Below are positions 15,414-37,052 of a stretch of 64,000 bases of DNA, in pieces; the stretch's first letter is position 1, and each line of letters starts with the position of its first letter. The notes beneath the pieces are model-generated. The model saw only the letters and a program-made list of their open reading frames with translations. It ran no database searches and was not told the origin of the DNA. Both the position numbers and the translations under genes were made by a program. Location: NCBI RefSeq assembly GCF_021462225.1, contig NC_061806.1, positions 4,521,234-4,585,233 on the forward strand, given 5' to 3'. This DNA comes from Girardinichthys multiradiatus (taxonomy: Eukaryota > Chordata > Actinopteri > Cyprinodontiformes > Goodeidae).

Positions 15414-15674
15414 TGTAGAATATAAACTATCTATGTGTGTAATGTAGAATATAAACTATCTATGTGTGTAATGTAGAATATAAACTATCTATGTGTGTAA
15501 TGTAGAATATAAACTATCTATGTGTGTAATGTAGAATATAAACTATCTATGTGTGTAATGTAGAATATAAACTATCTATGTGTGTAATGTAGAATATAAA
15601 CTATCTATGTGTGTAATGTAGAATATAAACTATCTATGTGTGTAATGTAGAATATAAACTATCTATGTGTGTAA
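15414..15674 (+). repeat. Nine-copy 29-bp tandem array at the LTR edge
   Basis: 261 bp = 9 x 29. The units start TGTAGAATATAAACTATC and appear identical. The 5' LTR has only one (9733-9761). Each unit begins with the LTR terminal TG, so the array repeats the LTR end itself. Confidence 0.93.
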
Positions 15675-17178: not shown

Positions 17179-17184
17179 CACTGG
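17179..17184. repeat. Maverick target-site duplication (6 bp), left
   Basis: CACTGG, repeated exactly at 37047-37052. Six-base duplications are the rule for Maverick/Polinton insertions. Confidence 0.85.
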
Positions 17185-17186
17185 AA

Positions 17187-17395
17187 AGAGACTAAAATAC
17201 ACCCTTTAATCAAACTTTTGACAGGTGACCTTTGACCTTTAAGGGGGGTCATGGAGGACTGAGAACAGGTGGCGTGAGGGGTGTGACCGAGGGGCGTAAC
17301 CGTACATGCTGATTGGATGTCGTCATTAGGGGTGAAACCTTAAATGAACCAATTACAACCCAGGGGTGTGTTTAAGGGTGTTATTAATAATCTGT
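17187..17395 (+). repeat. Maverick left inverted terminal repeat
   Basis: Matches the reverse complement of about 36838-37046. The shared outer segment includes AAGGGGGGTCATGG, GGGCGTAACCGT and CATGCTGATTGG, then TTAAATGAACCAATTA. The left end has two extra A residues (17185-17186) outside the shared AGAGACT. Confidence 0.9.
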
Positions 17396-18329
17396 ATGTT
17401 TTTTCAGGCGTTAATACATCTAAAAAATACATGCATCCTTTATATTTTAAAGGTATACTCAACCTAATAACTTAAAACAGGACCTATTTGCTGAATATAT
17501 TAGCCGGTCTAAATCAGTTCAAAATAGAAAAGACCTAAAAGTAAATAAAGATTGTGCTTCCCTACATCGGTAGAACGAGCAAACCTTCCACTTCTGCCTC
17601 AACAGACTGGAGACCAGGAGAAAGAGGTAAGACAAATATGAGATTAACAGAAAAACTTTACGAGCCCTCGGTATACTGTTTCCAAGTTATAAATTGACTA
17701 GAGATGATATGTTTGTTTTGAATCACGAGATTCCATTTTAGGAAAAGGAATGATAATTTTAGTTACCTATAGCTTTTCTAAAACTTATTTTTTTTCATCT
17801 TAGAGCAAAGGTTATTGAGGGACTTACTGAAACAGTTAACACCAGTCAACATCACCCTCGGCCTTCTGATTCAATTTCCTGACCAAGTGTGTGACACAGG
17901 GCAATAAAGTAATTAGAACTCTCCCAACCCCCTGCTCCAAAAGAGTCAATACATAGGTTCATGAACAGGTGAGACCCCCAGGGCCTGATGTATGTCAACG
18001 TTCGCTGGTTTCACATTGCCAATACGTGCTTCTAAAAGGAAATTCTTGTTTTTTGATTTTGGTAAAGTTTATAGAGACAGCTACCCATGTCAGAGCTCAC
18101 TGAGTTATGTCCACAAGAAACAGTGCAATGAATAGCTAATATGGTAATTTGACCTCTTTTTTGCATTTCAGGGTGCTGGCAATAAAAACAGGTTTAGTTT
18201 CACAGTAGTCCCAGAGCAGAGACATCAGAGTTGCCTACAACGTCAAGCGTCAAGTCTGGTACTGCTAAAAAAAGGTTTAAACTTGTTAGACTGAAAAATA
18301 CTAGTAGAACTCTAGTTTAAACTTGTTAC
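17396..18329 (+). other. Left-arm leader with possible 5' untranslated exons
   Basis: No open frame is found. Splice-like signals are present: a candidate donor GTAAGA at about 17627, and pyrimidine-rich acceptors ending CATCTTAG (about 17803) and GCATTTCAG (about 18172). They may connect a promoter near the terminal repeat to the coding exons that begin at 18330. The exon boundaries here are guesses. Confidence 0.35.
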
Positions 18330-19898
18330 ATGGAAAATACCAGTACTGACAAGAAAAATATGTTGGTACATATTTCAGGAAACGAAGAAATTGCAGCATC
18401 TGCTTCTAATGATTCTCAGAAGTACAATGCCATCTTTAGAAGTAAGTATGCATTTTTAAGAAATCATTAAATGCATGTGAATGTTCTCTAATATTGTTTA
18501 TATATATATATTGTTTCTTTGTCTTAGAACCCACCACTGATGACCTTGAGGATTTCATCTTGACACAATCGGAATATGGTAAGTAATGTTAAGTGCAACA
18601 ATATTTTATAGTTAACGAATAAATCAGCTAACATTGAACAAATTTATAGATTTGATGAGAGAGGTAAACCCGAATGACCAAGTTGGAGGGGTCAGCGGCT
18701 GGAATCGACCTTCCCCCGACAATCAAAGTTGAGAAGGCGGATTATCTCCAAAAAAGAAAACCCGACAACATCTGAACTTTCTTCTAACAAAGAAATAAAA
18801 TCTGAATCGTTAAATACGCCTCCGCAAATTATCATCATTTCCCCTGAAAACACACCGGATAAGTTACCAGCTGCTCCCGGGCCAGAAAGTAAGCCCTAAA
18901 AACTATTTGTTTTCTTTGAGAGTGAATGTGTATTATTAGAGACTTGTTTTACACCTCAGATGAAACTGTTTACAGATTTGACAGAGAACGTACCTCTGAA
19001 AGAAACAGCAGCAGCTGATTTGATCAAGCAAACTAAAGCCGAACTTGGAATACAGCCATCACCTGTGGAGCAGCAAGGTGAGTAAAAAATAAATAAAAAG
19101 AACAATAATATGTATATTTATATATGTATTTTAAGCAAGTATAGTTCAATAAAATATCATATAAATCTGTTTACAGATGCATCCAAAGATGCGACACTGA
19201 AGCCCCCTACCAGAAGGTCACTTTTCAAAGATCAAGACAGCGTTCAACACAAACGCATCAGTCCAGTACAACAAGAAGCCAAATCTGGAGGTTTTATCGC
19301 ACAGACCCGGAGTAAGTTATAGTATTTCAGAATTCGTTTATAAACCTACAAGTAATAAAGTTATAGGAGTTCACTTCCCCCTTAAAATCTCGTTTATTTT
19401 ACAACTATTATCGTTTATTTATGAACGCTGTGCTGCGCAGCGTAAGGTAACTTTATTTTATTTTGTTTTTACAGAATATTTAACCCCAGCCAAAAGACAG
19501 CGACTCTCTGCTCTGCATACCAGAGCAACGCTTGTGAGAGCCTTAATGAGTGGTACGTTTAATTCATACCTACTGAATTAATTTGAATTCCCCCTTTTTT
19601 TCAGCTTTAATTTGTTTATTTCAATATATATTTGTTTTGTTGTTCATTCTCTTTTACAGAGGTAACGTTAATGGTTGGTGTGATGGAAATTCTTGCAGTA
19701 AGCATTTCACAGTGTATGACCTTTTTTATCTTACTCCTCAGAACATCTGTGTTAGAGGAAGAAGCTGTAAAAGCCATTATCAGAAGTTTAATGGTTCAGA
19801 CCCATCTTTTAGGACAATGTCAGGAAGGGCAGTTAGGTCTGTTCTTAGATAACTTTGTCACCTTTGAACTCAAGAAGGGTTTGGGTCATAAAACATAG
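18330..19898 (+). CDS. Seven-exon Maverick accessory gene of unknown function
   Basis: Exons: 18330-18441, 18528-18578, 18650-18888, 18976-19077, 19177-19311, 19475-19552 and 19660-19898 (ATG at 18330, TAG at the end). Six introns of 71-163 bp have GT...AG ends and mostly GTAAGT-like donors. Every intron is phase 1, and exons 2, 4, 5 and 6 are exact multiples of three. The product would be about 318 aa: an acidic start (TTDDLEDFILTQSEY), a Ser/Thr/Pro/Lys-rich middle with basic clusters (KLRRRIISKK, AKRQR), then a hydrophobic C-terminal exon (EILAVSISQCMTFFILLL) ending DNFVTFELKKGLGHKT. Exon 3 is 239 nt, one base short of frame, with a frame switch between about 18678 and 18732. This copy is therefore probably damaged there. 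I recognise no domain. It is first in the rightward arm, upstream of PolB. Confidence 0.7.
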
Positions 19899-20335
19899 GC
19901 TCTTTACAGTTGAGATAACACTGTCTTGTTCTGGTATAAATACTGTGTGTAAATAGCGTTCGGGGCTCTGTTCAACTGACTTGCTTGGTGACAGAGTCAT
20001 TCAAACGCTGAATGCCTTTGAATAAAACTTAAGACAAAGTCTGGATTTTTCTCTTCTTGTGAGTCAACTTCTCTCCACTTTGATAAGAAAATTGCACAAC
20101 TTTGGACAGATTGATTCCAGACCCGGACAGCAACGTCGCAGCAAGAAGGCCTCGCAAGCTGCACGGAACCGTCGAAATAAAGCCTCATCGTTAACGCTTC
20201 TGGCAGCATGTTAGATTCTGTTACAGAAGCAGTTTGGTGACATCAAGGTGATTTTAAACTGAAGAGATCACTGTGTTTTGTTTTTTTGTTTTTTTTTTTC
20301 TGTAGGTTTGTTTGATTTTTCTTATGCTCATATAA
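19899..20335 (+). other. 3' region of the spliced gene and PolB leader
   Basis: No ORF is supported. Polyadenylation-like AATAAA signals occur near 20022 and 20174. A pyrimidine-rich acceptor (TTTTTCTGTAG, ending about 20306) lies 30 bases before the PolB ATG. The segment around 19930-20040 (a TATAAATACT box, then AATAAAAC) resembles an LTR promoter/polyA block, but no partner repeat was found. Confidence 0.35.
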
Positions 20336-23300
20336 ATGGATAACCGAATCCGACTTGCCCTGGATGAAATAAAGAATTTAGTAACTGAGCTTAACGAAAT
20401 CCCTATAGCTGCACATGTTTTAGAGGATGAATCATCTCTTGTTAACAACCACAATGAAGATCAGACTTTTTAAACTTAATCAATCAGGCTATTGAAGAAT
20501 TAAATACACCGTCTCCACCTGACAGTCATCAACATCACACAATGCTGAGCAGCATGGGGGTTATTTCAATCAGGAGATAGCAGTCAGCTCTGATCAAATA
20601 GGACGAGATCCTCCAGCGGTTGATGAACGTGAATGTTTTAATAACCATGAAATAAGGAGACCTTTTAACCAGACGTAACGACGTTGTGCAGCTGGAATTA
20701 GTGGGTGAAAATCTCAATCGTCACATCGCATTTACTGTTACAGATTATGGAAATATGATCCTGCCTGCTTTCGAGGACTTTTTGGACGACTTAGAACAAT
20801 CGAATGCTGATGTACCTGTAGATAATAACCTGGAATTTGTTCTTCAGGTAGTTAATGACCCTGCAGGAGGGTCTAAACGTAAGGCTACAGGAACGTTAGA
20901 CTGTGAACTGATTAATAAGAAAATGCGTCACCTGTATGTTGTAGATAATACTGGTAATCAGTAATGCTTTGCAATCTGCCTCGCACACGTCTCTGACCCT
21001 GAGCTTACTGATGACCGTGCTGTAGAACTAGGGAGGAAATGGCAGGCTCTACTGCTCTGTGTAAATTTGAGACCAGTTTCCCTGATCGTTCAAACCCTCT
21101 GTTTATGCTGTTATTTCAAGGCCATTACTATGAGATAAAAAATCTCAAAGGTTTTATAGGGTGCAGGTATGTCAGTGGGTACTGTTACACCAGCTATGAG
21201 AATACAAACACAAACCATTGTGAAGGTTATTGTTCAGTGTGTCAAACATATAAATGTATGCAAGAAATTAGCAATCCTGTAACCTGTGCAGGCTGTCAAA
21301 GAATCTGTCGTAATTCTTCATGTTTCAGCAGACGCAGGGAACCCCGCAACAAAAATAGTGCTGAAAAACCTATGAGTGACTGTGAGTTGGTAAAACTTTG
21401 TAAAATATGCAAAAGGATATACGTTATTCCAATCAGTAAACCAAATAAACCACACGTGTGTAATGTAAAATGCTGTATTTGCGGTGAAAATGTACCTCCC
21501 GGCCTAGACATTACATGCGATGATCATAAGTGCTACATTCAGCCTTTCAGTGCAATTAATCAGCTTGATGATAAACTGATTTTTTATGATTTTGAATGAT
21601 TCATCAATGAGAGCGGCGTGCACACCCCCTTTCTGGTCTGTGCTAAAACGTTGAAAGGTGATGAATGGCATGCTTATGAGTTAGACTGCACCCAAAAATT
21701 TATTCTCCATTTCAGGAGACCAATGTTCAGAGGTTTCACCTAAATAGCGCACAACGCGCGTGGGTATGACAGCTACCTGATTCTCACACCTATGCTGCAG
21801 TTAGGTATTAAACCTCATCTCATCATGCTAGGAAGTAAAGTTCTCTGTTTAACGACCCTGATTACAGGTTAAAATTCATTGATAGCCTGTCCTTCATGTG
21901 TATGAAGTTGAGTGCCATGCCGAAAGCAAGGGTTTTTTCCCCCACCTATTCTCCTCCGAAGAGCGCCTCCGGTACGTGGGGTCATATCCTGCCCCATCCT
22001 CCTATGCTGTAGAACGCACGAGTCTTCAAGAACAACAGGTGTTTAACAGCTGGTACAGAGAAGCGAGCAAAGGGGTCTTTGACTTTAAGAAAGAAGCTAT
22101 TCGTTATTGTAAAAATGACGTTGAAATTCTTTCTCAAGGCTGCTTAAAATTCAGAGACGAGTTCTTTAAGGAAACAAGTGTGGATCCGTTGGTTGGTAAA
22201 TGCATCACGATAGCATCTGCGTGCATGAAGGTTTTTGTAACCAATTTCCTTCCTCCTAAAACCCTGGCTATCCCCTCACCTCTGGATTACAGACGTAGCT
22301 GCAAAACGTTCTCCAGCGTGTCCATTCAATGGCTTGGATGGATTGCAGACAGCAGAACCATATTTATCGAGCATGCTTTAAATAGGGGTGAAAAGAAAAT
22401 TGGTCCATATTCTGTGGATGGGTATGCAGAGATTAACGGTGTCAAAGTTGCGTTTGAATTTTACGGCTGTTTTTTCCATGGCTATAAAAAGTGTTACATG
22501 CCTCATGACAAGTGTCCGTTGAGAGGGGTCGCATTTGAACAGTTTTACGCCGCGACAGTCGAGAGAAGCAAGGTGCTCCAAACTGTGTATGGCCTTCGTC
22601 TCGAGGTCATCTGGGAGCATGAGTGGACTGAAATGAAAAAAACCCACCCGGGGGTGATCAGCTTTCTTGTGAAAGTTAACGCACCCGAACCGTTATCACC
22701 CCGGGATGCTCTGTATGGTGGACGCACCTAAGCTATGAGACTGAGGTACACAGCGGGGCCGGGTGAAACTACACTATATGGATTACACATCTCTGTACCC
22801 TCATGTAAACGCCAACTGTGTTTTTCCCCTCGGTCACCCCACCATCATATGCAAAGATTTTGATAACCCCAGCAGCTACTTCGGTATAATCAGAGCCCTG
22901 GTCTACCCGCCATGAGGCCTCTTTTTCCCCGTTTTACCTCACAGAACTTCCCAAGGTAAACTTGTGTTCACTTTCTGCCGCACATGCGCTGAAATAAATG
23001 ACCAGTCAGGTCCCTGCATGCATGGTGATCAGGACAGAGCTCTGACGGGTGTGTGGGTGAGTGTAGAGTTTTGTAAAGCGTTGTAGTGTGGTTATCGCCT
23101 TGCTAAAATCACAGAGGTGTGGCATTTTGAAAAGAGCAGTGATACAATCTTCAAAGGGTATATCAACACCTTCCTGAAGGGTAAACAGGAGGCTTCAGGG
23201 TACCCGTCTGAAGCAGTGGATCAGGAGAGCAAATCAAAGTATGTAAGAGACTATAAACTCCATCAGGGTATCCAATTAGACCCTGAAAAATCGAGGTGAA

Positions 23301-23802
23301 CCCTGCCAAAAGGCAGGTGGCAAAACTGTGTTTAAACAGCTTTTGGGGGAAATTTGCGCAAAGAAGTGACCTGTCTCAGACCACAGTCATCACTAACCCT
23401 GATGAATTTTTCAGCTTCATGTTCTCGAGTAAATATAGGGTTAACTACTTCCATTTTTTCAACAATGAAATGTGTGTATTGCAGTGGAATTTCAGTAAAC
23501 GTGTCATCTCTCCACCAAGCAAGGCAAACAATGCAGCATATTGCAGCATTCACCACCGCTTATTCATGTTTAAAACTTCTCAGCAGCATGGAGTAATTGC
23601 AGGACAGATTGATTTATATTGACACGGACAGTTTGATTTATGTGACAAAAAGTGGTGAAACTCCTTTGGAGCTTGGAAATTATCTGGGTGATCTTACTGA
23701 CGAGTTAGATGGTGACACTATTTTGGAGTTTGCATCAACAGGACCCAAGAGTTATGCATATCAAACCAAAATCCAGAAAAAGCTAGTGATACGTGCTAAA
23801 GG
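20336..23802 (+). pseudogene. Maverick protein-primed DNA polymerase B, N-terminal and central part
   Basis: Would replicate the element from protein-bound ends. The proposed start is the ATG at 20336 (MDNRIRLALDE). Exonuclease motifs in order: Exo I FYDFE (ending 21597, then TGA), Exo II HNARGYD (about 21750) and Exo III YCKNDVEI (about 22105). Polymerase motifs: A, MDYTSLYPH (about 22779); B, KRQVAKLCLNSFWGKF (about 23309); C, YIDTDSLIYV (about 23618). A Cys-rich stretch of zinc-binding character lies at 21200-21540 between the N-terminal region and Exo I. The frame is broken many times (near 20473, 20965, 21598, 21720, 22730, 22910 and 23298). The gene is then cut by the Gypsy element at 23803. 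Confidence 0.92.
23798..23802. repeat. Gypsy target-site duplication (5 bp), left
   Basis: AAAGG, repeated at 27890-27894. Confidence 0.9.
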
Positions 23803-24399
23803 TGTCATAATGTTAATGGCCGACTTGACCCACATGCAGAAAAACACAACTAAACAGAGAAGCGTTTAGTAAGAAGTTTTATGTGCAGAACCAGGTACTG
23901 GAAACCGAGGATGCTGAGCGACTGCAAGAGAAAAGCAAATGCAGGTAAGACACCACCAAAGAAACCTTAACAATGTGCTCAATGTGAGAGCTTACGTCCG
24001 GTTGACTTAGGTCCGCCAGGGAGAGAGGTTATGATCCTGGAGGGGCTGTGAGCAACACTGCAACGTTGGAGCAAGGTAGTCCTGAGAGGTTCGGAGGGGG
24101 GTGGACAGGGTTTGCCTGGAGTTATGAAGCAAACATCTGATCCGGCAGCCAGCGGGTAGAAGAGCGAGAATCCAGAATCCACAAACTGTTAGAAGTCTTC
24201 CAGAGATCTCTTAGGAACTAGGCTTTGGTATCCATGAGGAGGCAAAACACTCAGGCGTCGAAGTACTGGCTCGCCTCCTTCTTATAGTCCTCCAGCTGAT
24301 GACACTCATGCGATACACCTGACCACCCAGAACTCAGCTCCTAACGCCCCTACTGGTGGAAAAGGGTTAGTAGCAGGCAAAAATAACCAGGATCTGACA
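23803..24399 (-). repeat. Gypsy 3' LTR (left)
   Basis: 597 bp, starts TGTCATAATG and ends GGATCTGACA on the plus strand. Direct repeat of 27291-27889. Confidence 0.95.
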
Positions 24400-24410
24400 C
24401 CACCTCCCCC

Positions 24411-25173
24411 TCAACAACCGCCTCCGGGCGGTCTAGATGAAGTGACCTGGGATGACCAGAAGTCCTGAATCAGTCTACAGTCCAGGATGAAAGACCGGGG
24501 AACCCAGAGGCGATCCTCGGGACCGTAACCCTCCCAATCCACTAAGAACTGCCACCCCCTTCCTCGTCGACGGGCGGACCGAGTACGCCGGGTGGCCTTG
24601 CAACTCCTGGGCGGGTGGAGGGGGCACGACCGGAGGGCAGAGCATGCTGGACTGGACAGACTTAATCTGAGATACATGAAACACAGGATGGACCCGGAAA
24701 CTAGGGGGCAAACGTAGACGTACCGATGAAGGGTTAACCACAGAATCTATAACATATGGGCCGATGAACCTGGGAGATAGCTTCCGGGACAGAGACTTGA
24801 GCGGAACAGTCCGTGTAGACAGCCACACCTGCTGACCCGGGCGATAGGTAGGAGCAGGGATCCGTCGCCTGTCGACGTAGCGTTTGTTGGCTGCAGCGGA
24901 CCGCTGAAGGGCCTTGGTGGTAGACGTCCAGATCCATCTGCATCGCCGGACGTTTTGTCGTACGGAGGTAACAGCGATCTCCTTCTCATCAGCAGGAAAC
25001 AGGGGTGGTTGATACCCCAGCGAAACTTCAAATGGGGATAAACTGGTGGCAGTGGAGACATGTGAATTGTGTGAGTACTCAATCCAGGGCAGGTAGTCGC
25101 TCCAATCAGTAGGGCTGGAGGATGCTACGCAGCGTAGCGCTGCTTCCATCTCCAAGTCTCTCCACTTGGCCAT
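24411..25173 (-). pseudogene. Gypsy integrase C-terminal region and chromodomain
   Basis: Read leftward: the integrase tail (LPWIEYSHNSHVSTATSLSP, FEVSLGYQPPLFP), the GPY/F-type segment ([21 protein letters not shown]), then a chromodomain ([20 protein letters not shown]) in an adjacent frame at about 24530-24470. Chromodomains of this class steer integration toward marked chromatin. The frame moves at about 25110-25170 relative to the integrase core, and again before the chromodomain. Confidence 0.85.
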
Positions 25174-26089
25174 TGGTCTGTGGGTGATGACCGGAAGTTA
25201 GAGAGACGGTGGCCCCCAGCGCTGCACAAAACTCCTTCCACACCTGGGCGTTGAACTGGGGCCCACGGTCCGACAGCACGTCCTGGGGGATTCCATGCAA
25301 ACGGAATACGTGCTTGACCATAAGCTTGGCAATCTGGAAAGCGGAAGGCAGTCTCCTGAGAGGTACAAGATGGCAGGCTTTAGAAAATCTGTCCACAATA
25401 GTCATGATAGTAGTCATACCGTGAGAGTTTGGAAGGCCAGTGACAAAATCCACAGCGATGTGGGACCAAGGTCGAGGAGGAACGTCCAACGGTTGCAGGA
25501 GGCCAGGGGGTGGCCGATTAGATGTCTTGTTACGAGCACAGGTTCTACAGGCTGAAACATAATCCCTAATGTCTCGGTGTAAAGTGGGCCACCAAAAGCG
25601 TCTAGACAGGGCAGTGATGGTCCGATTAGCTCCTGGGTGGACGGCGAACCTTGAAGCATGAAACCAGGTAATGAGCCGGGACCGAACAGCGCTGGGAACA
25701 TACATCCGGTTAGGTGGTCCAGTTCCTGGCCCCGGGTCAGCGAGGAGGGCCTGCCGCACGCTGTCCTCAATCTCCCAGGTAACGGCTCCAATAGTGCAGC
25801 TAGGAGGCAGGATAGGCGCAGCTAGCTTCTCAGTTTCATTAGTGGAGAACTGTCGTGACAGGGTATCTGGCTTGGTGTTTCTGGTACCGGGTCTGTAAGA
25901 GATCAATAAATTAAAGCGAGAAAAGAATAATGACCAACGTGATTGTCTAGGTTTTAACCGTTTTGCTGATTGGATGTAAGACAAATTTCTATGGTCGGTC
26001 CAGACCAGCACTGGATGTTCAGCGCCCTCCAACCAGTGCCGCCACTCCTCCAGAGCGAGCTTAATAGCTAGGAGCTCTCTGTCACCCAC
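25106..26089 (-). pseudogene. Gypsy RNase H and integrase core
   Basis: Starts in RNase H ([31 protein letters not shown]). It continues to the zinc-binding HHCC domain ([20 protein letters not shown], then CRTCARN) and the DDE core: VDFVTGLP with the first Asp, [12 protein letters not shown] with the second, and QVERLG for the Glu region. It is separated from RT by a stop just upstream (about 26090), where the expected Asn-Tyr of the RNase H start is lost. Confidence 0.9.
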
Positions 26090-26092
26090 ATC

Positions 26093-27061
26093 TTAGCTCC
26101 TTTCTGCCACATATAAGCGGCGAGAGAAAAAGGCACACGGATGAAGCCTTGAGTCAAGGTCCTGGCGTTGGGAGAGCACCGCTCCCTCCCCGGTGTCCGA
26201 AGCATCCACCTCCAGAATGAACTGTTTCGCTGAATCAGGGTGAACGAGCACTGGAGCATGGGTGAACTTGTCTTTTAAGGTGCTGAATGCGTTGTCTGCC
26301 TCCGGAGTCCAAACGAACGGCACCTTAGAGGAAGTCAGGGCTGTGAGGGGGCTGGCCGTCTGACTGTAGTTCATAATAAATTTTCTATAAAAATTGGCAA
26401 AGACCAGAAACCATTGTAATTCCTTCCGAGTGGTAGGGATAGGCCAGTCCTCCACCGCCTTAATCTTGCTGGGGTCAGCGCGAACCTGCCCACCCTCGAG
26501 GACGAAACCCAGAAAACTGATGGATGACAGGTGGAATTCGCACTTCTCTGCCTTCACAAACAGCTGATTTTCCAGGAGGCGCTGAAGGACTAGACAAACG
26601 TGCCGGCGATGCTCTGTAGGAGTCTTTGAATTAACCAAAATGTCATCAAGATAAACAAAAACGAATAGATTCGGGAAGTCCCTTAATACATCGTTTACAA
26701 GAGCATGGAACACAGCGGGTGCATTACATAGTCCAAACGGCATCATCAGGTACTCATAGTGTCCGGGTGGAGTCTTAAAAGCCGTCTTCCACTCATCTCC
26801 CTAGCGGATTCGGACCAAGTGGTATGCGTTCCTAAGATCGAGTTTAGTAAAGATTGTGACACCATAAACTGGTTCAAAGGCCGATGAAAGAAGGGGTAAA
26901 GGGTACTTGTTCTTTATCGTGATGGTGTTTAATCCCCTATAATCTATACACGGGCGGAGAGACCCATCTTTCTTCCCAACAAAGAAAAACCCAGCTCCCA
27001 ATGGGGATGAAGATGGTCGGATTATTCCTGAGGCTAATGATTCGTTTATATAATTCTCCAT
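26093..27061 (-). pseudogene. Gypsy reverse transcriptase
   Basis: Copies the element RNA. It begins at [20 protein letters not shown] and runs through [16 protein letters not shown] and [20 protein letters not shown] stop (about 26801-26803) interrupts, then the same frame resumes with [13 protein letters not shown] and the catalytic VYLDD, then [11 protein letters not shown]. The one nonsense codon and the terminal stop at 26093 are the visible lesions. Confidence 0.92.
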
Positions 27062-27084
27062 GCGGAAGTCGCTGCGCTACTGGA

Positions 27085-27300
27085 GGCTCCGCAGCGGCCC
27101 CCGGTGGTGCTGTGGGTCTAACACTCAGGGTGTGCTGCATGAGTGCCGTCATCTCCCCCAGCTGTTGACTAACTTGTCGCTGCTGTTCTAGGATCGAACT
27201 GAGGGTTGAGTCATGGACCTGGATCGTTTGGCCGTGTTCCGAAACGGTTCTCTGTAGTTTTTCTGCTGGGTCCGGCTGGCCTGAGTGTTCTGTCATAATG
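27085..27300 (-). pseudogene. Gypsy gag N-terminal remnant
   Basis: About 70 codons from an ATG overlapping the LTR end (MTEHSGQPDPAEKL...), with the heptad-like block LSSILEQQRQVSQQLGEMTA typical of fish Gypsy gag starts. It ends abruptly at about 27080, where the RT fingers sequence ([10 protein letters not shown] region) begins. This marks a deletion of the rest of gag and the protease. Confidence 0.75.
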
Positions 27301-27889
27301 TTAATGGCCGACTTGACCCACATGCAGAAAAACACAACTAAACAGAGAAGCCTTTAGTAAGAAGTTTTATTTGCAGAACCAGGTACTGGAAACCGAGGAT
27401 GCTGAGCAACTGCAAGAGAAAAGCAAATGCAGGTAAGACACCACCAAAGAAACCTTAACAATGTGCTCTATGTGAGAGCTTACGAGTTAGTTGAGTTAGG
27501 TCCGCCAGGGAGAGAGGTTATGATCCTGGAGGGGCTGTGAGCAACACTGCAACGTTGGAACAAGGTAGTCCTGACAGGTTCGGAGGGGGGTGGACAGGGT
27601 TCGCCTGGAGTTATGAAGCAAACATCTGATCCGGCAGCCAGCGGGTAGAAGAGCGAGAATCCAGAATCCATAAACTGTTAGAAGTCTTCCAGAGATCTCT
27701 TAGGAACTAGGCTTTGGTATCCATGAGGAGGCAAAACACTCAGGCGTCAAAGTACTGGCTCGCCTCCTTCTTATAGTCCTCCAGCTGATGACACTCATGC
27801 GATACACCTGACCACCCAGAACTCAGCTCCTAATGCCCCTACTGGTGGAAAAGGGTTAGTAGCAGGCAAAAAATAACCAGGATCTGACA
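27291..27889 (-). repeat. Gypsy 5' LTR (right)
   Basis: 599 bp, TG...CA, followed by AAAGG. Confidence 0.95.
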
Positions 27890-28129
27890 AAAGGCATCAC
27901 TCAGACGCATGAATGCATTGAGAGGGTCAATTTGGACAGTATCAAAGGGCTGGTCGAGGGCTACTTACAGAGGTCAAGTGAGGGTGTCATTGAAATTCCT
28001 CACCACACGATCAAGAAGGATAAAAAGAGATTCCGTTTAATAAACGCAACATTTCTTAAAAGGTTTCTATTGGTCTATGATAAGAGACGTCTTTTTTCTG
28101 ACGGGACAACTCTGCCTTTTGGTTATTAG
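27890..28129 (+). pseudogene. Maverick DNA polymerase B, C-terminal part
   Basis: Resumes after the Gypsy insertion in one open frame (GITQTHECIERVNLDSIKGL ... TTLPFGY, then TAG). It joins the left part at the RAKG codons interrupted at 23802. This is the thumb/C-terminal region usual for Maverick polymerases, ending 50 bases before the ATPase ATG. Confidence 0.85.
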
Positions 28130-28179
28130 AGCTTAAGAAGAAGAAGAAAAAATAAATAATAATAATAAAAAAAAGTTCC

Positions 28180-28850
28180 ATGGATTTACAGGAGATTGAT
28201 TTTGATCCTAGATTTAGAGCACCTTTCTCATGTTTGATTGTTGGACCCAGCGGCTGCGGGAAAACTTTCTTTGTAAAAAGTATTTTACAAAATTGTAATC
28301 ATGTCATGGATGTTGCACCTGAAAATATTGCATGGATTTACACTTCTTTTCAACCCATGTATGCTGAATTGCAGAAGATGACTAAAAATATTACCTTTGT
28401 GGAAGGATTGCCTCATTATTTTGAAGATGAAAACCTGTTTCCTCCTGATCAGAATCATCTGATCATTCTAGACGATGTTATTGCCCAAGCCTCAGATGAT
28501 GAAAACGTGATGAAAGTCTTCACCCAGTTTCGTCACCATCGTAATATGAGCGTCATGATGTTGACTCAGAATGTTTTTCATCAGGGAAAGTTCAGTCGCA
28601 CCATCACCCTGAACGCTAATATACGGTGTTGTTTAAAAACCCGAAAGATAAACTCCAGCTGAATATACTGGCCCGCCAAATGTTTCCATCTCAAAAGGGT
28701 CTCTTCTTGGAGAGTTTTGAAGATGAGACAAGAGATGCTCATGGATATTTAATCATCGATTTTACGCCTACCTGCCCAGAACATTTCAGACTGAGAACGG
28801 GCATATTTCCTCACCAGTGGCCTGCTGTGTACGTACCCAAAACAAAGTAA
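28180..28850 (+). pseudogene. Maverick packaging ATPase (FtsK/HerA type), frameshifted
   Basis: Would power DNA packaging into capsids. Walker A is GPSGCGKT (residues 22-29), Walker B is LIILDD (94-99), and a sensor-like LTQNVFHQGKFSRTI follows. The first frame runs 160 codons to 28662. The conserved continuation (LFKNPKDKLQ ... PAVYVPKTK) is in another frame from about 28626 to 28850. A small indel near 28625-28640 therefore breaks the gene. The combined length of about 222 aa fits the family. It lies between PolB and the pX-like ORF on the same strand. Confidence 0.92.
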
Positions 28851-28857
28851 GTCATCA

Positions 28858-29198
28858 TGTCTGCACGTATAAAAAGGAATGCCCCGTTATTCAGAGCTTT
28901 GTACCAAGCCAGTCCACAGAAATGCTAAGATATTTTCGCACACTGCTCTCCCAACTTTCTTCCGGCTCTGTGTGAGATTGCTCTGAATATTTTATAAGGT
29001 AACATTAAACTATCACCCTCTCAACACCGACAATTGAAGAAACAAAGAAAAATCATCAGATTGTTGGGTGATAAAAGAACCGGTATCAAGCGTAAGCAGT
29101 TGGCTCTTAAAAGTCAAGGAGGTGGTTTTATTCTCCCAATCCTAACGGCTCTTGCTCCCTTGATCGGTGATCTAGTGGGTGGAATCATCAGGAGATAA
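28858..29198 (+). pseudogene. Small basic/hydrophobic pX-like protein
   Basis: About 110 codons with in-frame stops: MSARIKRNAPLFRAL..., then EIALNIL, a stop, GNIKLSPSQHRQLKKQRK, a Lys/Arg-rich stretch (RTGIKRKQLALKSQ) and a glycine-led hydrophobic end (GGGFILPILTALAPLIGDLV). This layout (basic body, GGF-hydrophobic tail) is what I recall for adenovirus pX-like proteins in Mavericks and adintoviruses. A stop after PQKC and a TAA before GNIK mark decay. Its TAA overlaps the next ATG (TAATG). Confidence 0.65.
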
Positions 29199-30016
29199 TG
29201 TCTCTCAGAACATCGCAGAAGATGCTTCTCATTTCCCCTCATCAATTCAAGCGTCTGACCCAGTCAGATACATCCATCCGACAGACGGCGGAGGAGAATT
29301 TGGATGCTGAAATGAGAGCAATATTAAATGAGCCCGGTTTGACTTCTTATGGAAAAATCAAGAAATATGATGCACTTTTGCAGAGGTATCTGACTCTACT
29401 CAAGCAAGGTGTGAAAGAAGAACAGCGGGTGAGTTTGACGCTGCACCGTGACACATCAAGCGAGGTTCCTGAGCATGAGCGGTCCCAAGAAAAACAAGGC
29501 ACGGGGCAGGACGAGGCCCCTAAGAATCAGGTTGTTATGGATGTACTGAAAAGCCTACCGAAGCATAACCGTAAAAATGCCGAGTACTTTTTGAAGAAAT
29601 TATCCGAAAGAAGTGAGAGTTGGACTTTGCGAGGAGAATTTGTATTTAAAGGAAATGTTGTAAAGGGGTCCCACATGATTGACTTGTTGAAAAATCTCAT
29701 GCTTCCGTTTAAAAAATCTGGAGCACCGCTACCCCGAGTATGGTCAGACTTTCTACATACCTTGTCAGAGGTAAACATCCCCATATCTTCAGTCATTAAC
29801 CCTTATGCTTATGATAAATATAGACTGTTCAAAACAGAGGGAGAGGGTACACCACCCAGCGTTAAGCAGAGAAGAACAAAAAGAAGAAGGCAGATAACTC
29901 TTTCTCCCCATTGGTCGAGATCCGAGCTGGAAGATCCAAAACATGCTGATGGTAAGTCAAAAAAGTCTCTTCGTAAGACGACATTACCACCCCGATGGAT
30001 TACATTTTCACCATAA
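29198..30016 (+). CDS. Maverick protein of unknown function, 272 aa
   Basis: An intact ORF starting at the ATG that shares bases with the stop of the pX-like ORF (TAATG, 29196-29200). It begins MSLRTSQKMLLISPHQFKRL, with a helical N-terminus (residues 20-75) and a variable charged linker (80-110). A conserved-looking core follows at about 110-205 (VMDVLKSLPKHNRKNAEYFL, GEFVFKGNVVKGSHMIDLLK, then PRVWSDFL and VNIPISSVINPY). The tail is very basic (KQRRTKRRRQITLSP, KKSLRKTTLPPRW). I recall this core as recurrent in animal Mavericks without a known function. The basic tail suggests DNA or RNA binding. It is the last gene of the rightward arm. Confidence 0.8.
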   Translation: MSLRTSQKMLLISPHQFKRLTQSDTSIRQTAEENLDAEMRAILNEPGLTSYGKIKKYDALLQRYLTLLKQGVKEEQRVSLTLHRDTSSEVPEHERSQEKQGTGQDEAPKNQVVMDVLKSLPKHNRKNAEYFLKKLSERSESWTLRGEFVFKGNVVKGSHMIDLLKNLMLPFKKSGAPLPRVWSDFLHTLSEVNIPISSVINPYAYDKYRLFKTEGEGTPPSVKQRRTKRRRQITLSPHWSRSELEDPKHADGKSKKSLRKTTLPPRWITFSP

Positions 30017-30049
30017 ACCGTTATAAGAAAATGAAACATGTAGCCTATT

Positions 30050-30075
30050 TCCTTTATTCAATAAAATATTTATTG
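30050..30075. terminator. Bidirectional polyadenylation site between the converging arms
   Basis: AATAAA on the plus strand at 30060-30065, and on the minus strand as TTTATT at 30053-30058 and 30069-30074. The site sits between the last rightward gene (ends 30016) and the last leftward gene (ends 30185). Confidence 0.65.
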
Positions 30076-30184
30076 ATTATATTTTCAAGTCTAGCTTCGT
30101 TCTCTACTTCACACACTAACATATGATGTCATTACACAAATAGTAAATCATAAGAAAAAACAAACAATAAAAACAAAAGACAAT

Positions 30185-30727
30185 TTAAATTCCATAATAA
30201 TCCAGAAACATCTCCAAAGAGCATGTTCCGTGAGTATAAAATGTACAACTTTGATTAATGACACATTTCTGATATATTTTCACAAAGTTAGATACCATTA
30301 AATCATTCTTAATCACATCTCCGGTGTATTTTGACAACACTTGCTGCAGTGATAATCCGCACGCTCTATGACATAGATAAAAAATGCAATGGTGACCGCA
30401 CACAGTGGATAGAGTGTTTTGAAGCTGATTATTATGATACAATATTTTTGAGGATCTGTCTTCTAAAAATGTTACGATGCTTGACGGGTAGAACTCGAAA
30501 TCCGGAGAGAATCCATAAGAGTCAAAAAAGCTGGATTGACCATTCTCATCCAAAGTCAGAGCTAACCAGTGTTCTCCAGGCATGTTTGAAGGAAGTGTGT
30601 TCACAATAAAGTAGGCCGACCCTGAGAATTTGTCAGCTAGCAGTGGCAGCTGATCACACGCCCACACACCGCAAAACAAATCTCCCAGCAGATGATGCAG
30701 CAGGTTCTCAATTTCATGATTATTCAA
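30185..30727 (-). CDS. Adenain-like cysteine protease, start codon apparently lost
   Basis: Would mature capsid proteins. The Ulp1/adenain residues are visible: His53 (GEHW), Asp69 (FFDSYG), Gln103 and Cys110 (TVCGHHC). The seven-residue Gln-Cys spacing is as in adenovirus protease. The frame is open for 180 codons, a normal length, but it begins with TTG where ATG is expected (TTGAATAATCATG). The next in-frame Met is at residue 49, too late for a working enzyme. An A-to-T change at the start codon is the simplest explanation. It follows the capsid gene closely on the same strand. Confidence 0.9.
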   Translation of the reverse strand: MNNHEIENLLHHLLGDLFCGVWACDQLPLLADKFSGSAYFIVNTLPSNMPGEHWLALTLDENGQSSFFDSYGFSPDFEFYPSSIVTFLEDRSSKILYHNNQLQNTLSTVCGHHCIFYLCHRACGLSLQQVLSKYTGDVIKNDLMVSNFVKIYQKCVINQSCTFYTHGTCSLEMFLDYYGI

Positions 30728-30809
30728 GTCTGATTAGATTAATAATAATCCACCAGCACACGCCTCTTTGAATCAATCTCTAAAATAGAGTAATAACCAG
30801 CGTAGATGA

Positions 30810-32045
30810 TCAGCATGGTGGTATGAGGCAATGGTTTCTGAAGCGCATTTCCAGTCTTAAATTCCCACTGGAAACTGGAGAAAGAGCATCTGTGTCCTCA
30901 CCCGGGTTAAGATTAAATGCGAATAGAGAGTATCCTTGATTAAATTCTTGATGTGTTACACTCAGCGGAAGATCTTTTAGATGTCGTCCTGTAGCCGTAA
31001 ACAAGTTGTAATACTCTCTCACTGAATGACCTTGGTTAAAATTGGGCTGGAAGGCCTTAGCTGGAATTTGTCTGCCGTCTTTACACAAAGCTAAATATTC
31101 CATATCAAAATGATTAAAGTCAAACGGATAGAGATCGCGTGTTCCTGTAAAAGCGTCATGATCCAGTAATGCAATCACCACATACTTGGGAAAGACGCCT
31201 AAGAAAAGATTCTCTTGGTTGCATACCCTTGAATTTTCAGGGATGGAATATGTTTTTACATTCACACGTGAAAGTGGATAGAGAGCATTTGCTTTCGTTA
31301 AAGCTGAAGCGTGCCCCGGTCGTACAGCTGGAGAGACAGAAACTGTTTTGATGAAAAGAGAGGCTCCTAATATCCTAAGTTTGTAAGTGGAGTCTCTTGC
31401 TGCCATGAGACAAAAGGCATCGTTGGCTCTTGTAAGTTTAATTTGAAGGTCAACAGAGTTTAAAAGAAGTCTCTCGCAGAAAAATATGTCGGCATGCAGG
31501 GGGCCTAGGAGATGTACCTCCCTGGAATTTGCCGTAAAGCCTGCTCTGCTGTTAAGACCTTGGTTAGGGCCATTAGTTATAACAATAGAGTTCAGAGCCC
31601 CGGCTGTGTCTTTATAAAAAAGACCAGAGCTAAACTTGCTTTTTAAAGAATCCTCAGAAAAGTTTAACAATGTCTCAATCATGGCTCTATATGAATGGGT
31701 GGCGCTGGATTGTGAAATCAATCGATCTCCAAGAGTGACATCACACTGACTGAAGATGGTGTTTAACGGGTAGTTGATGAGCCCTACAGGTGCATCATCC
31801 AGCAGGTTTGTTCCATCCTCGTTAGTAATTTTCACTCTGAGATGCAACAGCGTATCATTGAGATCCAGATACTTTTCTCCGTCTCCCGGAATGAAAAACT
31901 CGATCGGGCCTCCATCAGTGATTGCTGATAAAGGCTGGATCTCGGTGTAAATTTTATCTTCGATCGATAGCTGCGTCATCGGGGCAGAAAATAAGTCCAG
32001 CTCTGCCAGCGTGCACTCTGATGATTTGTTATGTAAAAGAGCCAT
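30810..32045 (-). CDS. Major capsid protein (double jelly-roll, hexon-like), tail frameshifted
   Basis: Structural shell protein of Maverick particles, of the class often annotated as F54H12.2-like in animals. Starts at ATG 32045 (MALLHNKSSECTLAELDLFS). Recognised blocks: ITDGGPIEFFIPG near 42-54, YLDLNDTLLHLRVK near 59-72, SYRAMIETLLNF near 117-128, HADIFFCERLLLNSVDLQIK near 184-203, NQENLFLGVFPK near 277-288, and LRLEMRF near 395-401. After that the frame changes, and the ORF ends RNHCLIPPC at 411. The conserved hydrophobic tail is legible in the next frame down to a stop at 30739, so a one-base deletion near 30841 truncates it. Confidence 0.88.
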   Translation of the reverse strand: MALLHNKSSECTLAELDLFSAPMTQLSIEDKIYTEIQPLSAITDGGPIEFFIPGDGEKYLDLNDTLLHLRVKITNEDGTNLLDDAPVGLINYPLNTIFSQCDVTLGDRLISQSSATHSYRAMIETLLNFSEDSLKSKFSSGLFYKDTAGALNSIVITNGPNQGLNSRAGFTANSREVHLLGPLHADIFFCERLLLNSVDLQIKLTRANDAFCLMAARDSTYKLRILGASLFIKTVSVSPAVRPGHASALTKANALYPLSRVNVKTYSIPENSRVCNQENLFLGVFPKYVVIALLDHDAFTGTRDLYPFDFNHFDMEYLALCKDGRQIPAKAFQPNFNQGHSVREYYNLFTATGRHLKDLPLSVTHQEFNQGYSLFAFNLNPGEDTDALSPVSSGNLRLEMRFRNHCLIPPC

Positions 32046-32488
32046 TATTTAAATATATCAAAACTTACGGATGACTTCCTTCCTCTTCGTTTGTCAGCTG
32101 CAACTGATCTCCTTTTTCGTGCTAGCGATTGTTTTTTAACCATCCTTAAACGATCACCAGGGGGTCTTGTTCTGGGTCTTTTGGATAAAACCATAATTCC
32201 TGAACCTTCTTGACCTTCGATGTGTGTAGAACCACTCATTTTAATCACGGCTCTACCTATGACATCCGAAGCGATATTTGATGCAGCTGTTTTAAGATGG
32301 GGTTTTGCAATAACAAATCATTTTTTAACCAGAGGGGATACGAAGCAGAATAATTTTGAAAATAATGATCCAATTCCACATCCGTACATGACCGGAGCCC
32401 CATAAAAACCTGGCAGATTACCGCCTGATTGACTTACATAGTAATTTACAAAGCGATTTGGATCACGTCTCAGACTTAGCTGTGCCAT
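32045..32488 (-). pseudogene. pVI-like minor capsid/core protein with one stop codon
   Basis: The frame begins MAQLSLRRDPNRFVNYYV at 32488 and passes through GGNLPGFYGAPVMYG. It meets a TGA (about 32332) where a Gly codon is expected (VKK stop FVIAKPHLK), then continues uninterrupted to a Lys/Arg-rich C-terminus (RPRTRPPGDRLRMVKKQSL, KRRGRKSSVS) ending at 32045. It abuts the capsid start codon. The layout (short N-terminus, Gly-rich turn, amphipathic stretch, basic tail) matches small Maverick core proteins. The single nonsense codon is the only lesion I see. Confidence 0.7.
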
Positions 32489-32600
32489 GTTCTCTCTTGC
32501 CTGCTTGATGCAGTGTTGAAGGACCAGGGTAATATGAATGATAACCAATCAGAATTAGAGGTTATATACATATCTCTGGAATAGTTTATACAAATAAAAT

Positions 32601-33369
32601 TTATCTCAGGCTACGTTGTGATATCACCAGTCTGAAGTGTAGTCTTATGATTGTCTTTCCGTAGACAAAATTTACAGGAACATTTTGGTCCGATTTAATT
32701 TCTATATTGATATTTTCAATATGTCTTCTGGAAACTGGAAGGTAATGGGCGGGGTTAAACGTCAGAGTAACCATATCACTGAAGTCGCCTTGTACTTTGA
32801 CTTTGGTCCGCAGTAAAGGTGCAAAAGTGTCGCCTACTATTTGCGGGCTGACCCCATCGCTGTAACAGTATAGGTGATAGAAACCGGCCTTTATATCTGC
32901 CGGAAAAGGAGCCAGTTTTGGTTCAGATACATGAATCCATTCCCCTGGTTTCACGGCCATCATATAAGCTAGAGTGCTGAAGAAGCGTATTTCATATGGA
33001 CTGCTTGGTTGAAATGCAAATCCCATTTGAACTTTGCTGAATTTAATGCGGATACCAGAGTTCATTTTTTTGAAAAACAGTTCCATCTCTGTCTCAAGTT
33101 GAATAACGCTGTTATACTAGCCACTTCTGATCCTTTGCGTATTGATCTCCACATCACCAACCTTCCTCCATTCAAAGTAGGCATCATGATCCAGTAAATT
33201 TTGCCATATATGAGGGTATGAAATCTCTGCTAATCCATTGGCCTTCTAAATCAATATGTTGAGCTAAATTTACACGGAAACTCAAACTGGTATTATTTTT
33301 AAACACTTCCACGCTAGCGTTAGAGGGAAGGGTAACGTAAAAGCCATCATCCTCTACCTGACAGTTCAT
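32601..33369 (-). pseudogene. Minor capsid protein (penton-like single jelly-roll), broken
   Basis: Would form capsid vertices. It starts at ATG 33369 (MNCQVEDDGFYVTLPSNASV), a typical Maverick minor capsid opening with strands SLSFRVNLAQHIDL. The conserved LAEISYPHIW block lies in a shifted frame near 33215-33190. An in-frame TAG (about 33116-33118) interrupts it. From 33086 the remaining 161 codons are open (GFAFQPSSPYEI, MMAVKPGEWIHV, IENINIEIKSDQ, IIRLHFR) to the stop at 32601. Total length of about 255 aa fits the family. Confidence 0.8.
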
Positions 33370-33391
33370 GATGCTGTGTCAACTGTGAAGT

Positions 33392-34495
33392 TTAGTGCTG
33401 ACCTTTGTATATGTTTCGAAGTTCATCAAACCTGATCCAACTGTTGAATTTCTCAGGCCAGTTTTTCCAGCTTACAAAAACCTGTTTGATTCCCTTGACC
33501 GTACGTCGTTTTAATATTTTTTCCACTTGATACATCTTGTCGTTAAATATTTTTACTTTTTGAAGCTCCTCTGCGTAAAAGGAACCCTCGATAGGTTCTC
33601 CATCCAAATCTTTGAGTTTGTATACAGGAGAAGATCGGGGTATCTGCTCATACACTGTAAACACTTCATCCGTAAAACTCTGTTCGTATTTTTTGTCAAA
33701 CACTCCACAGACCTTGGATATTCTGACAAGATCCCCTTGTTTAAACGTTGTCACTGAGTCCTTGCAATATCTGTTGGAGTTGACATCATACAGATTCTGA
33801 AACACTTGAAAGGCATTTTGTGAGGTCACTTCAATAGGGTTCATTTTAATGCTGGAGTGGTAGCTGTGGTTGTAGCTTCTGGTTAGGTTTTGCAGGACAT
33901 CGACGTACCGCCGGGTGTTGTTAGCTGTAAAATATCTCCACATCCTTGTTTTTAATGTGCGGTTTAATCTCTCAACCACTGAAGCTTTTGCCTCACTCGC
34001 TTTCGCGAAATGTTCAATACCGTGTTTCTCCATTAAAACCTTAAATTTCTTGTTAAAAAATTCTTTGCCGGCATCAGTCTGACGTTTTCTGGGGATCTGA
34101 CTTTCTTTAAAAACTGATTCAAATGCCTTTACCACCTCAGCGGCTGTTTTCCTCTTCAAAACTCGTACAGACCCCCTTTTTGAAAAGATGTCAATGACTG
34201 TTAATAAATAATTATAACCATCATTTTCCTTGGCCAGAGCTTGCATGTCACAGAGATCAGCCTGGAACTGCCTCAATGGTCTGGTGACAAAAACTCTGTT
34301 TCTCGGGAACTTTATTATTGCAGGTTTATGTAGAGTATAGGTATCTTCTCCTGATAAAAAATCTTTAACTTCTTCAACCGCAACCTTCTTTCCCATTTCA
34401 TCTTGCGTAACCCTCCTCAGTCTATCTACACCCCCAAAGCTTCCCGGATTTGAAGGGCTATAATATACTTTCTTCATCAACCGTCTTCCTGCCAT
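33392..34495 (-). CDS. Maverick integrase with C-terminal chromodomain, 367 aa
   Basis: Inserts the linear element into host DNA. I chose the ATG at 34495 (MAGRRLMKKVYYSP), the first Met with family-like sequence. An RVE-type core follows with D80 (QADLCDM), D141 (QTDAGKEF) and E175 (ASVVERLNRTLK). The second Asp and Glu are separated by 33 residues, one fewer than I expect for this family. The region NPIEV...VFQNLYD and an SH3-like segment (FKQGDLVRISK) come next. A chromodomain (YQVEKILKRR, FVSWKNWPEKFNSWI) closes the protein. No stop or shift is seen, which makes it the best-preserved enzyme gene in the element. Chromodomains can bias target choice. Confidence 0.93.
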   Translation of the reverse strand: MAGRRLMKKVYYSPSNPGSFGGVDRLRRVTQDEMGKKVAVEEVKDFLSGEDTYTLHKPAIIKFPRNRVFVTRPLRQFQADLCDMQALAKENDGYNYLLTVIDIFSKRGSVRVLKRKTAAEVVKAFESVFKESQIPRKRQTDAGKEFFNKKFKVLMEKHGIEHFAKASEAKASVVERLNRTLKTRMWRYFTANNTRRYVDVLQNLTRSYNHSYHSSIKMNPIEVTSQNAFQVFQNLYDVNSNRYCKDSVTTFKQGDLVRISKVCGVFDKKYEQSFTDEVFTVYEQIPRSSPVYKLKDLDGEPIEGSFYAEELQKVKIFNDKMYQVEKILKRRTVKGIKQVFVSWKNWPEKFNSWIRFDELRNIYKGQH

Positions 34496-34850
34496 ATCTG
34501 CCTTATGCTCACTCTGACGATTACTTGTTAAATAATGAGAAAAAACACACCGGAGGGTAGATTTATCCCTTTTTTTATTTTTGTATTTAATAGTAAAAAA
34601 AAAAAAAACAATCAGATAAAATGCAGATGAATTCAAACACTACAAGCTTTTAAACAACACTTTTGGGAAAGGTTAATATGTTCCCACTTTAATTGTATTT
34701 GATAGTAAAACGAAAAAGAAGAAAAATCATATAATGCAAATTAATTAAAGTACTGGAATACTAAAAATGAGTTAAGTTGTTTGAGATGTTTCTCTTCGGC
34801 CATGCGATCATAAACGTGCGCTATTGCACTGTGGATGCCTTGTACCGATT
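34496..34850. other. Spacer between integrase and accessory genes
   Basis: AT-rich with a poly(A/T) tract near 34560-34615. It likely holds the 3' end of the accessory transcripts and the integrase promoter. No specific site is supported. Confidence 0.35.
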
Positions 34851-35168
34851 TCAGTTCATATAAAACCTCAAAATCTCTGCAATCATTTTCACTCTGAAGT
34901 CATCCGCTTGTATGCGGCAAAGTATCAGAAGATTCTGAATAGCAGGAACAAGCTTGGGGGTTACGAGTCGTCGCACGATGCGTTGAAAGTTGACTTGGTA
35001 ATAATCCTCCCCCAATACCTCCAGGCATTGGTGCTGACACTGGCTCGGGTGGTTCGTTATGCACGCATAGCAGGTTTTTCTCTGAGATAGTTCAAAGAGG
35101 TTATGTTGAATAAATGAAGTATCGCTGTTTTCACCGTATTGATAAGGGTGGTTGAGAACCAACCGTCA
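34851..35168 (-). pseudogene. Accessory ORF R3: Cys/His cluster protein
   Basis: About 105 codons open between a TGA and the stop at 34851, without an ATG near the start. The N-terminal part (YGENSDTSFIQHNLFELSQR) leads to a Cys/His cluster KTCYACITNHPSQCQHQC, which could bind zinc. A helical segment (FQRIVRRLVTPKLVPAIQNL, DDFRVKMIAEIL) follows. It overlaps the end of R2 in another frame with no own start, so it is probably the C-terminal half of one R2-R3 protein. The two would be joined through a frameshift lesion or a splice. Function unknown. Confidence 0.5.
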
Positions 35169-35581: not shown

Positions 35582-35628
35582 TCTCAGGATTCGGCTCTCA
35601 GTGTCTGTGAGCTTGCTGTTATCCCCCC

Positions 35629-35640
35629 GTATATATATCA
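35629..35640 (-). promoter_or_regulatory. TATA box for accessory ORF R2
   Basis: TGATATATATAC on the minus strand, about 50 bases before the R2 ATG and beyond the end of R1 (35659). It suggests separate transcription units. Confidence 0.6.
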
Positions 35641-35658
35641 TAGGAAGGGGGCGTGTCC

Positions 35659-36708: not shown

Positions 36709-36744
36709 TGGGTTATTCAAGGTTTAACGAGGCTTACAAACACA

Positions 36745-37046: not shown

Positions 37047-37052
37047 CACTGG
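37047..37052. repeat. Maverick target-site duplication, right
   Basis: CACTGG, identical to 17179-17184. Confidence 0.85.

Follow-up and report, generated by a model that had tools for sequence, protein, structure and literature searches.

Can a Maverick, a virus-like DNA element, encode a protein across introns in a vertebrate genome? The question is raised by a 64,000-nucleotide stretch of the fish Girardinichthys multiradiatus (contig NC_061806.1, positions 4,521,234 to 4,585,233 of the forward strand; hereafter the window, to which all positions refer), where a preliminary description had placed a seven-exon spliced gene at the left end of such an element. Comparison with sister copies in the same genome indicates, at the level of sequence, that one lineage of fish Mavericks carries a true accessory gene with seven coding exons and six phase-1 introns, and it is very likely that this gene is real. 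The gene is under purifying selection in the sister copies, and the copy in the window is dead. Its product is predicted to be an early nuclear regulator similar in working style to adenovirus E1A, a reading that can be assigned a probability of roughly 0.6.

Intact vertebrate Mavericks are described as intron-free in the available part of Barreat and Katzourakis 2021 (PMC8097293), a statement on the known members and not a defining feature, and the accessory gene discussed here departs from that description by its six introns. The titles and abstract openings of the papers surveyed mention no vertebrate Maverick gene with splicing, full texts being limited to those under open licence. Some invertebrate Polintons have introns.

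Exon structure and selection in the sister copies

A search of the species' own genome (1.15 Gb) with the putative major capsid protein (MCP) of the window scored 101 of 1294 candidates, or 100 besides the window's own, and these relatives are 95–96% identical to the window MCP, two with and 98 without an internal stop. Left-end stretches were fetched from 20 of the 100 places and the gene was present in 19, referred to as the young copies; the remaining stretch (L013) ended just beyond the terminal repeat. The young copies are 95–99% alike, with L022 and L023 practically identical, and resemble the window at 79–81% over the gene region including introns. A DNA search with the gene itself, for which the best 40 of 3263 candidates were scored, provided 12 closer copies (84–92%), referred to as the siblings. 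A PolB-based hunt for divergent lineages (the best 76 of 1216 candidates) led to six fetched stretches, all of the young type; among the matches listed, five of the six match exons 2–5, L044 is without exon 1, L046 is without exons 6–7 and L042 matches exon 7 only.

The sister copies share the exons and splice sites, which bears out the proposal that the left end of the Maverick holds an accessory gene with introns. Exon 2 has 51 nucleotides (nt) in 17 of the 19 young copies, exon 5 has 135 nt in 18 and exon 6 has 78 nt in 17, exon 4 measures 48, 51 or 54 nt in all 19, and the length of exon 3 is divisible by three in 15 (222, 225, 228 or 240 nt); the same holds for 10 of the 12 siblings, six of which have 240 nt. 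The pattern of exons and phases is complete in the unbroken relatives because their exon 3 is a multiple of three, as are their four other internal exons, and all six introns are in phase 1. Introns are 63–175 nt long, apart from intron 1 of two almost identical copies, which carries an insert. Donors read GT in 113/114 young and 62/72 sibling introns, after snapping to the consensus within 12 bases, a procedure that favours GT, and acceptors read AG in 112/114 and 65/72, respectively. The tests of frame, splice sites and stops are passed by 11 of the 19 young copies and by none of the 12 siblings; one of the 11 (L027) has ATT for ATG, leaving 10 of 19 fully intact on these criteria.

For the window copy, the preliminary description was correct about the six GT-AG introns, about exons 1, 2, 4, 5 and 6 being open with phase-1 joints and about exon 3 alone breaking the pattern, by one base. 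However, because exon 3 has 239 bases, the seven listed exons are not one open frame, and stops appear from exon 3 on. The start first listed, an ATG at 18330, is private to the window, being found in none of the 15 relatives checked (the 12 siblings and 3 of the 19 young copies), and the shared start lies at 18360. The last exon was likewise misplaced, in that the sequence from 19679 on is a solo long terminal repeat (LTR); the exon that really comes last codes for a basic C-terminal part. Of the features once ascribed to the product, the acidic start and the basic middle hold, and the hydrophobic end is an LTR artefact and not part of the gene.

Matches of the relatives stop at 19678, no other genomic place matches across that position, and the unit that follows is dispersed, with 39 other places scored (the best of 3064 candidates). 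Among its 40 places are seven same-strand pairs 6.1–13.3 kb apart and one opposite-strand pair, and RNase H (RT_RNaseH), integrase (rve) and protease (RVP) domains lie between paired units, in parts of two interiors. A short duplication of about TTGG flanks the insert on both sides. With direct pairs flanking genes and a target duplication, 19679–20101 is a solo LTR private to the window copy, and the exon 7 remnant beyond it is identical to exon 7 of sibling L033 at 150 of 159 aligned bases. The frame break in exon 3, together with the solo LTR and premature stop in exon 7, leaves the window copy dead.

A dead copy, in which the window alone offers a chain of only two same-phase, frame-keeping exons, invites the alternative that the splice pattern is due to chance or is a decayed non-coding remnant. 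The case for a gene rests on the relatives because the window copy alone reaches only two exons, and the earlier argument that the pattern is unlikely by chance thus holds through these relatives and not for the window by itself. In L028 the chain search finds five exons in phase 1, compared to a maximum of two in 300 shuffles (2/300 reach two; two-base blocks) and of two in 78 overlapping plus-strand pieces of the window (3/78). Indels, counted as distinct alignment gaps and not independent events in 18 young copies and 11 siblings, are multiples of three in 20 of 26 cases in exons and 42 of 135 in introns (Fisher p 1.8e-5). The ratio of non-synonymous to synonymous divergence (dN/dS) for in-frame exons is 0.34 among 18 young copies, 0.39 among 12 siblings and 0.45 between 8 young copies and 12 siblings. 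When ungapped exons are read in the right frame, the ratio is 0.43 among the young copies, 0.35 among the siblings and 0.50 between them, compared to 0.59–1.24 in the other two frames, and the bootstrap intervals of the siblings are separate (0.25–0.50 in the right frame versus 0.65–1.37 and 0.70–1.73). L023 was omitted from the dN/dS, protein alignment, indel, frame-control and bootstrap analyses, and the badly broken sibling L040 from the last three. Set beside the 11 of 19 sister copies that pass the tests, the in-frame indels, the frame-specific selection and the chain of five make chance or decay extremely improbable, and the older siblings (dN/dS 0.35, interval 0.25–0.50) argue against open frames maintained by recent descent alone. 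The protein thus appears to be kept but changing fast, its dN/dS being above that of MCP (0.19 for 7 young copies compared with one another, 0.165 for the comparison with the window).

Several observations weigh against a selected gene. In addition to the short chain in the window copy, a length also reached by 1 of 300 of its own shuffles, the bootstrap interval for the right frame overlaps those for the wrong frames both within the young set and between the subfamilies. Single-exon dN/dS ranges from 0.11 to 2.6 and is high for exon 1 (2.6) and exon 4 (0.99) among the young copies and for exon 2 between subfamilies (1.25), the value not being computable for exon 2 in the young set and for exon 4 between subfamilies. 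DNA divergence between subfamilies is 0.11–0.31 in exons versus 0.07–0.18 in introns, and many siblings have a missing or ambiguous donor after exon 4, where GT is read in only 6 of 12.

The suggestion that exons could be removed without loss of frame is true of the structure of the unbroken relatives, and it can be imagined that the symmetric exons serve alternative splicing, with isoforms as in E1A, an idea that is compatible with a regulatory product and is put forward tentatively, as the less probable case. Each of the five internal exons could be skipped in frame in unbroken young copies, exon 4, the most divergent one, has roughly half its length in young copies, and a stretch of some 20 nt is common to acceptors 3 and 4 in each of the three copies compared. 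The latter hints at duplicated exons, which were considered as the source of the equal phase (further intron likeness in the same three copies may be AT-rich simple sequence). Equal phase, however, may only reflect how the gene grew.

Table 1. Positions of the spliced gene, its upstream features and its host element in the window.
Feature	Position	Strand	Basis
Whole Maverick, with a Gypsy-type element nested at about 24411–27353	17185–37046	.	inverted repeat arms, flanks, Pfam
Left terminal inverted repeat, inner end approximate	17185–17420	+	repeat arms; matches in sister copies
Candidate non-coding 5' leader exon, 5' end undefined	17478–17626	+	donor GTAAGAC
Candidate leader intron, adjoining the terminal repeat	17627–17803	+	conserved splice pair
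Upstream region of the window's subfamily; LTR fragment in its place in the young subfamily	17828–18317	+	
Exon 1, from shared ATG	18360–18441	+	projection to relatives
Exon 2, 51 nt, acidic stretch DDLEDFILTQSEY	18528–18578	+	projection, alignment
Exon 3, 239 nt here, 240 in 6/12 siblings; frame broken in window copy	18650–18888	+	
Exon 4, 102 nt here, 48–54 nt in young subfamily	18976–19077	+	
Exon 5, 135 nt, RRSLF motif	19177–19311	+	
Exon 6, 78 nt, YLTPAKRQRLSAL	19475–19552	+	
Start of true exon 7, interrupted	19660–19678	+	matches of relatives end at 19678; alignment
Solo LTR within exon 7 (about 420 bp, end within a few bases, duplication about TTGG); covers most of exon 7 as first read	19679–20101	+	
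Remnant of true exon 7, basic C-terminal part, premature in-frame stop (read by eye)	20104–20262	+	

The predicted product and its possible role

The predicted product of about 261 amino acids has no credible relative in Pfam or PDB, in agreement with its initial placement outside known families. Hits to RsaA_NTD, CPSF73 and MotB_plug fell far below the cut-off and were rejected, the MotB_plug hit belonging to the LTR-derived reading, and a bZIP reading of the basic C-terminus was discarded with no bZIP match in Pfam. IMG/VR yielded no relatives of exon 7 as first read, of the spliced product or of MCP.

Several stretches of the product are kept among the copies, with departures in single copies, chiefly broken siblings. 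The N-terminal stretch is acidic-hydrophobic (DDL[DE]DFILTQS[DE]YDLMREVNPNDQVGG) and is accompanied by SKLRRRIIS, IIIISPE[DN]TPDKLPA, RRSLF, YLTPAKRQRLSAL and the C-terminal part. Exon 7 of the relatives encodes a basic stretch followed by SLTLLAACQILL, with FGDIKVILN at the end in most rows, and this basic C-terminal exon has 29 of 55 positions invariant in 12 sequences. We take RRSLF to be a cyclin-docking-like motif, TPDK and TPAK to be CDK-type sites and IIIISPE to be a SUMO-interaction-like run. RxLF, the CDK-type site, the IIII run and DDxxDF occur in each of the 11 young copies scanned and KR.R in all but one of them, and the motifs are also present in most sibling rows of the alignment; the fraction of shuffles carrying the motif is 0.04 for RxLF and 0.002 for DDxxDF.

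Splicing implies nuclear transcription, and the gene would therefore be transcribed in the nucleus by host RNA polymerase II, presumably from the left end and early in the cycle of the element, with its exons joined by the host spliceosome. The acidic-hydrophobic N-terminal stretch might dock transcription cofactors, RRSLF, TPDK/TPAK and IIIISPE could link the product to host cell-cycle and nuclear-body proteins, and the basic C-terminal part might bind DNA or a partner. The proposed resemblance to E1A consists of a position at the left end, predicted splicing, a putative TATA promoter and short linear motifs. Unlike E1A, the product carries no LxCxE, CxxC zinc-finger pairs or PxDLS (0 of 11 young copies for each), and the likeness proposed is one of working style. 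If a seven-exon gene is selected in these elements, the element would produce its own protein by way of the host nucleus and spliceosome, in the manner of small nuclear DNA viruses, and the splice junctions offer a handle on whether, when and in which tissue vertebrate Mavericks are expressed.

A regulatory role must be set against the absence of a family match in Pfam and PDB and against the ease with which some of the motifs arise, as the CDK site is found in 0.30, the SUMO-type run in 0.15, the nuclear localization signal in 0.28 and RxLF in 4% of shuffles. A crude charge-hydropathy value of 0.423 is just on the folded side of the boundary (0.419), and the C-terminal piece modelled alone is one long helix of weak confidence (predicted local distance difference test 61). 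These points likewise weigh against the preferred reading.

The intronless state of the core genes, as originally noted and as found for MCP, integrase and polB (a 1373-amino-acid open frame from the first ATG in L026), could instead suggest that the Maverick took up part of a host gene, exons and introns together, and retained it for a function in immunity or cell control. Host genes that arose by exon shuffling typically have small symmetric phase-1 exons. The product nonetheless has no credible Pfam or PDB relative, own-genome searches having scored only the best copies, and the introns span just 63–175 nt apart from the two copies with an intron 1 insert, such that host capture is judged unlikely. 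It is about equally unlikely that the product is a virion or packaging protein translated from a spliced transcript, for which adenovirus late genes, made from spliced transcripts, would be the model and the well-kept basic C-terminal exon would be the DNA-binding part. The gene has the left terminal repeat on one side and polB on the other, shares the strand of the polymerase and lies away from the opposite-strand capsid module, and it evolves faster (dN/dS 0.34–0.45) than MCP (0.19 and 0.165), both of which argue against a virion protein. An early nuclear regulator is the favoured interpretation.

Adintoviruses share with this Maverick an rve integrase with chromodomain, PolB and an adenovirus-type protease, and the part of PMC11071296 that was available defines an 'Oncoid' gene class by short linear motifs. 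The product differs from these Oncoids in its lack of LxCxE and CxxC, and no seven-exon gene is described in that part of the source.

The region upstream of the gene

A leader intron upstream of the coding exons is likely from the conservation of its predicted splice sites, as the window has both the donor GTAAGAC and the acceptor AG, of which the first recurs in all 19 young copies and the second in 18. A shared splice from this leader to polB was also considered. All 17 young copies in which the site could be located (it was not located in L022 and L023) have an acceptor immediately ahead of the polB start codon. It is absent from the window and from the 8 siblings in which the site was located, and the shared splice was dropped because of this absence.

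Between the leader and the coding exons, the two subfamilies carry different sequence. The type found in the window extends, over nearly its full length, to 36 of 39 other scored places (the best 40 of 1162 candidates), and it has no match to the LTR (score 48, with 50 shuffles reaching up to 56). In 18 of the 19 young copies, 210–227 aligned columns within −269 to −46 of the ATG match the solo LTR of the window at 82–85%, corresponding to LTR positions 124 (or 139) to 344; in the nineteenth, L024, only 42 columns match. Of the 10 young copies examined, 9 have a TATA box (TATAAATACTG) in the LTR-derived segment, 130–134 nt ahead of the ATG, and the AATAAA of the LTR is altered at the joint in L009, the copy aligned.

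In the young subfamily an LTR fragment thus seems to have taken the place of the promoter, and the simplest reading is that an LTR promoter was probably captured before the gene in the subfamily that was amplified. The shared segment may also have passed in the opposite direction, from Maverick to LTR. Short upstream ATGs are present between the TATA box and the start, a further point against the preferred reading. An LTR piece with a TATA box before a gene is reminiscent of LTR promoter capture by genes in general, with the differences that the receiver is a Maverick and that the arrangement was amplified along with it. If the LTR-derived segment were a working promoter, it would connect a promoter switch to the copy burst, and LTR capture, if true, would mean a virus-like DNA element run by the switch of a retroelement. 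That the captured promoter (LTR 124–344, with its TATA box and ending at the polyadenylation signal) drove a spliced early regulator and, through this new expression, triggered a burst from which about a hundred near-intact copies remain is a more doubtful extension.

Synonymous divergence of the spliced gene between young copies and siblings is 0.27–0.31, and that of MCP between young copies and the window is 0.11. Given these unequal values, the arms of the Maverick may differ in history through recombination.

The host element and its surroundings

The Maverick is complete, as delimited by inverted-repeat arms, directly read flanks and Pfam core genes. Its ends read AGAGAC../..GTCTCT, and the target duplication CACTGG lies on both sides (17179–17184 and 37047–37052), the left end having two extra bases. 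PolB (broken) and the packaging ATPase are encoded on the plus strand, and an adenovirus-type protease, MCP and an integrase with chromodomain on the minus strand. Pfam matches above the cut-off to PF03175 (PolB), PF04665 (packaging ATPase), PF00665 and PF00385 (integrase) and PF00770 (protease) place it among the Mavericks/Polintons. MCP, an open reading frame of 411 amino acids at 30810–32045, has no Pfam match and is named by its position and size; 100 other genomic places encode relatives of it.

In the available part of PMC8097293, vertebrate Mavericks share with this element the opposite-strand modules, protein-primed PolB, ATPase, integrase, protease, terminal inverted repeats, 6-bp target duplication and accessory regions outside the core, and their (AG)3 terminal motif is near but not identical to the AGAGAC found here. 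That source counts 134 intact elements in 17 species, where intact refers to the whole element. The load in this genome is heavy, with at least 100 other MCP copies, 98 of them without internal stop, a count of MCP genes only, unlike the whole-element count.

The nested Gypsy-type element (24411–27353) lies between PolB and ATPase of the Maverick. At the right end, two overlapping accessory open reading frames (35057–36723, minus strand) have no Pfam match and might also be spliced. Elsewhere in the window, a transposon is present in three copies (484–2098, 45428–47042 and 58222–59820) with inverted ends of about 200 bp that are 95–99% complementary, the first copy encoding a Tc1-type transposase, and a 29-bp tandem repeat of nine copies with a 100% match occupies 15414–15674, about 1.5 kb to the left of the Maverick.
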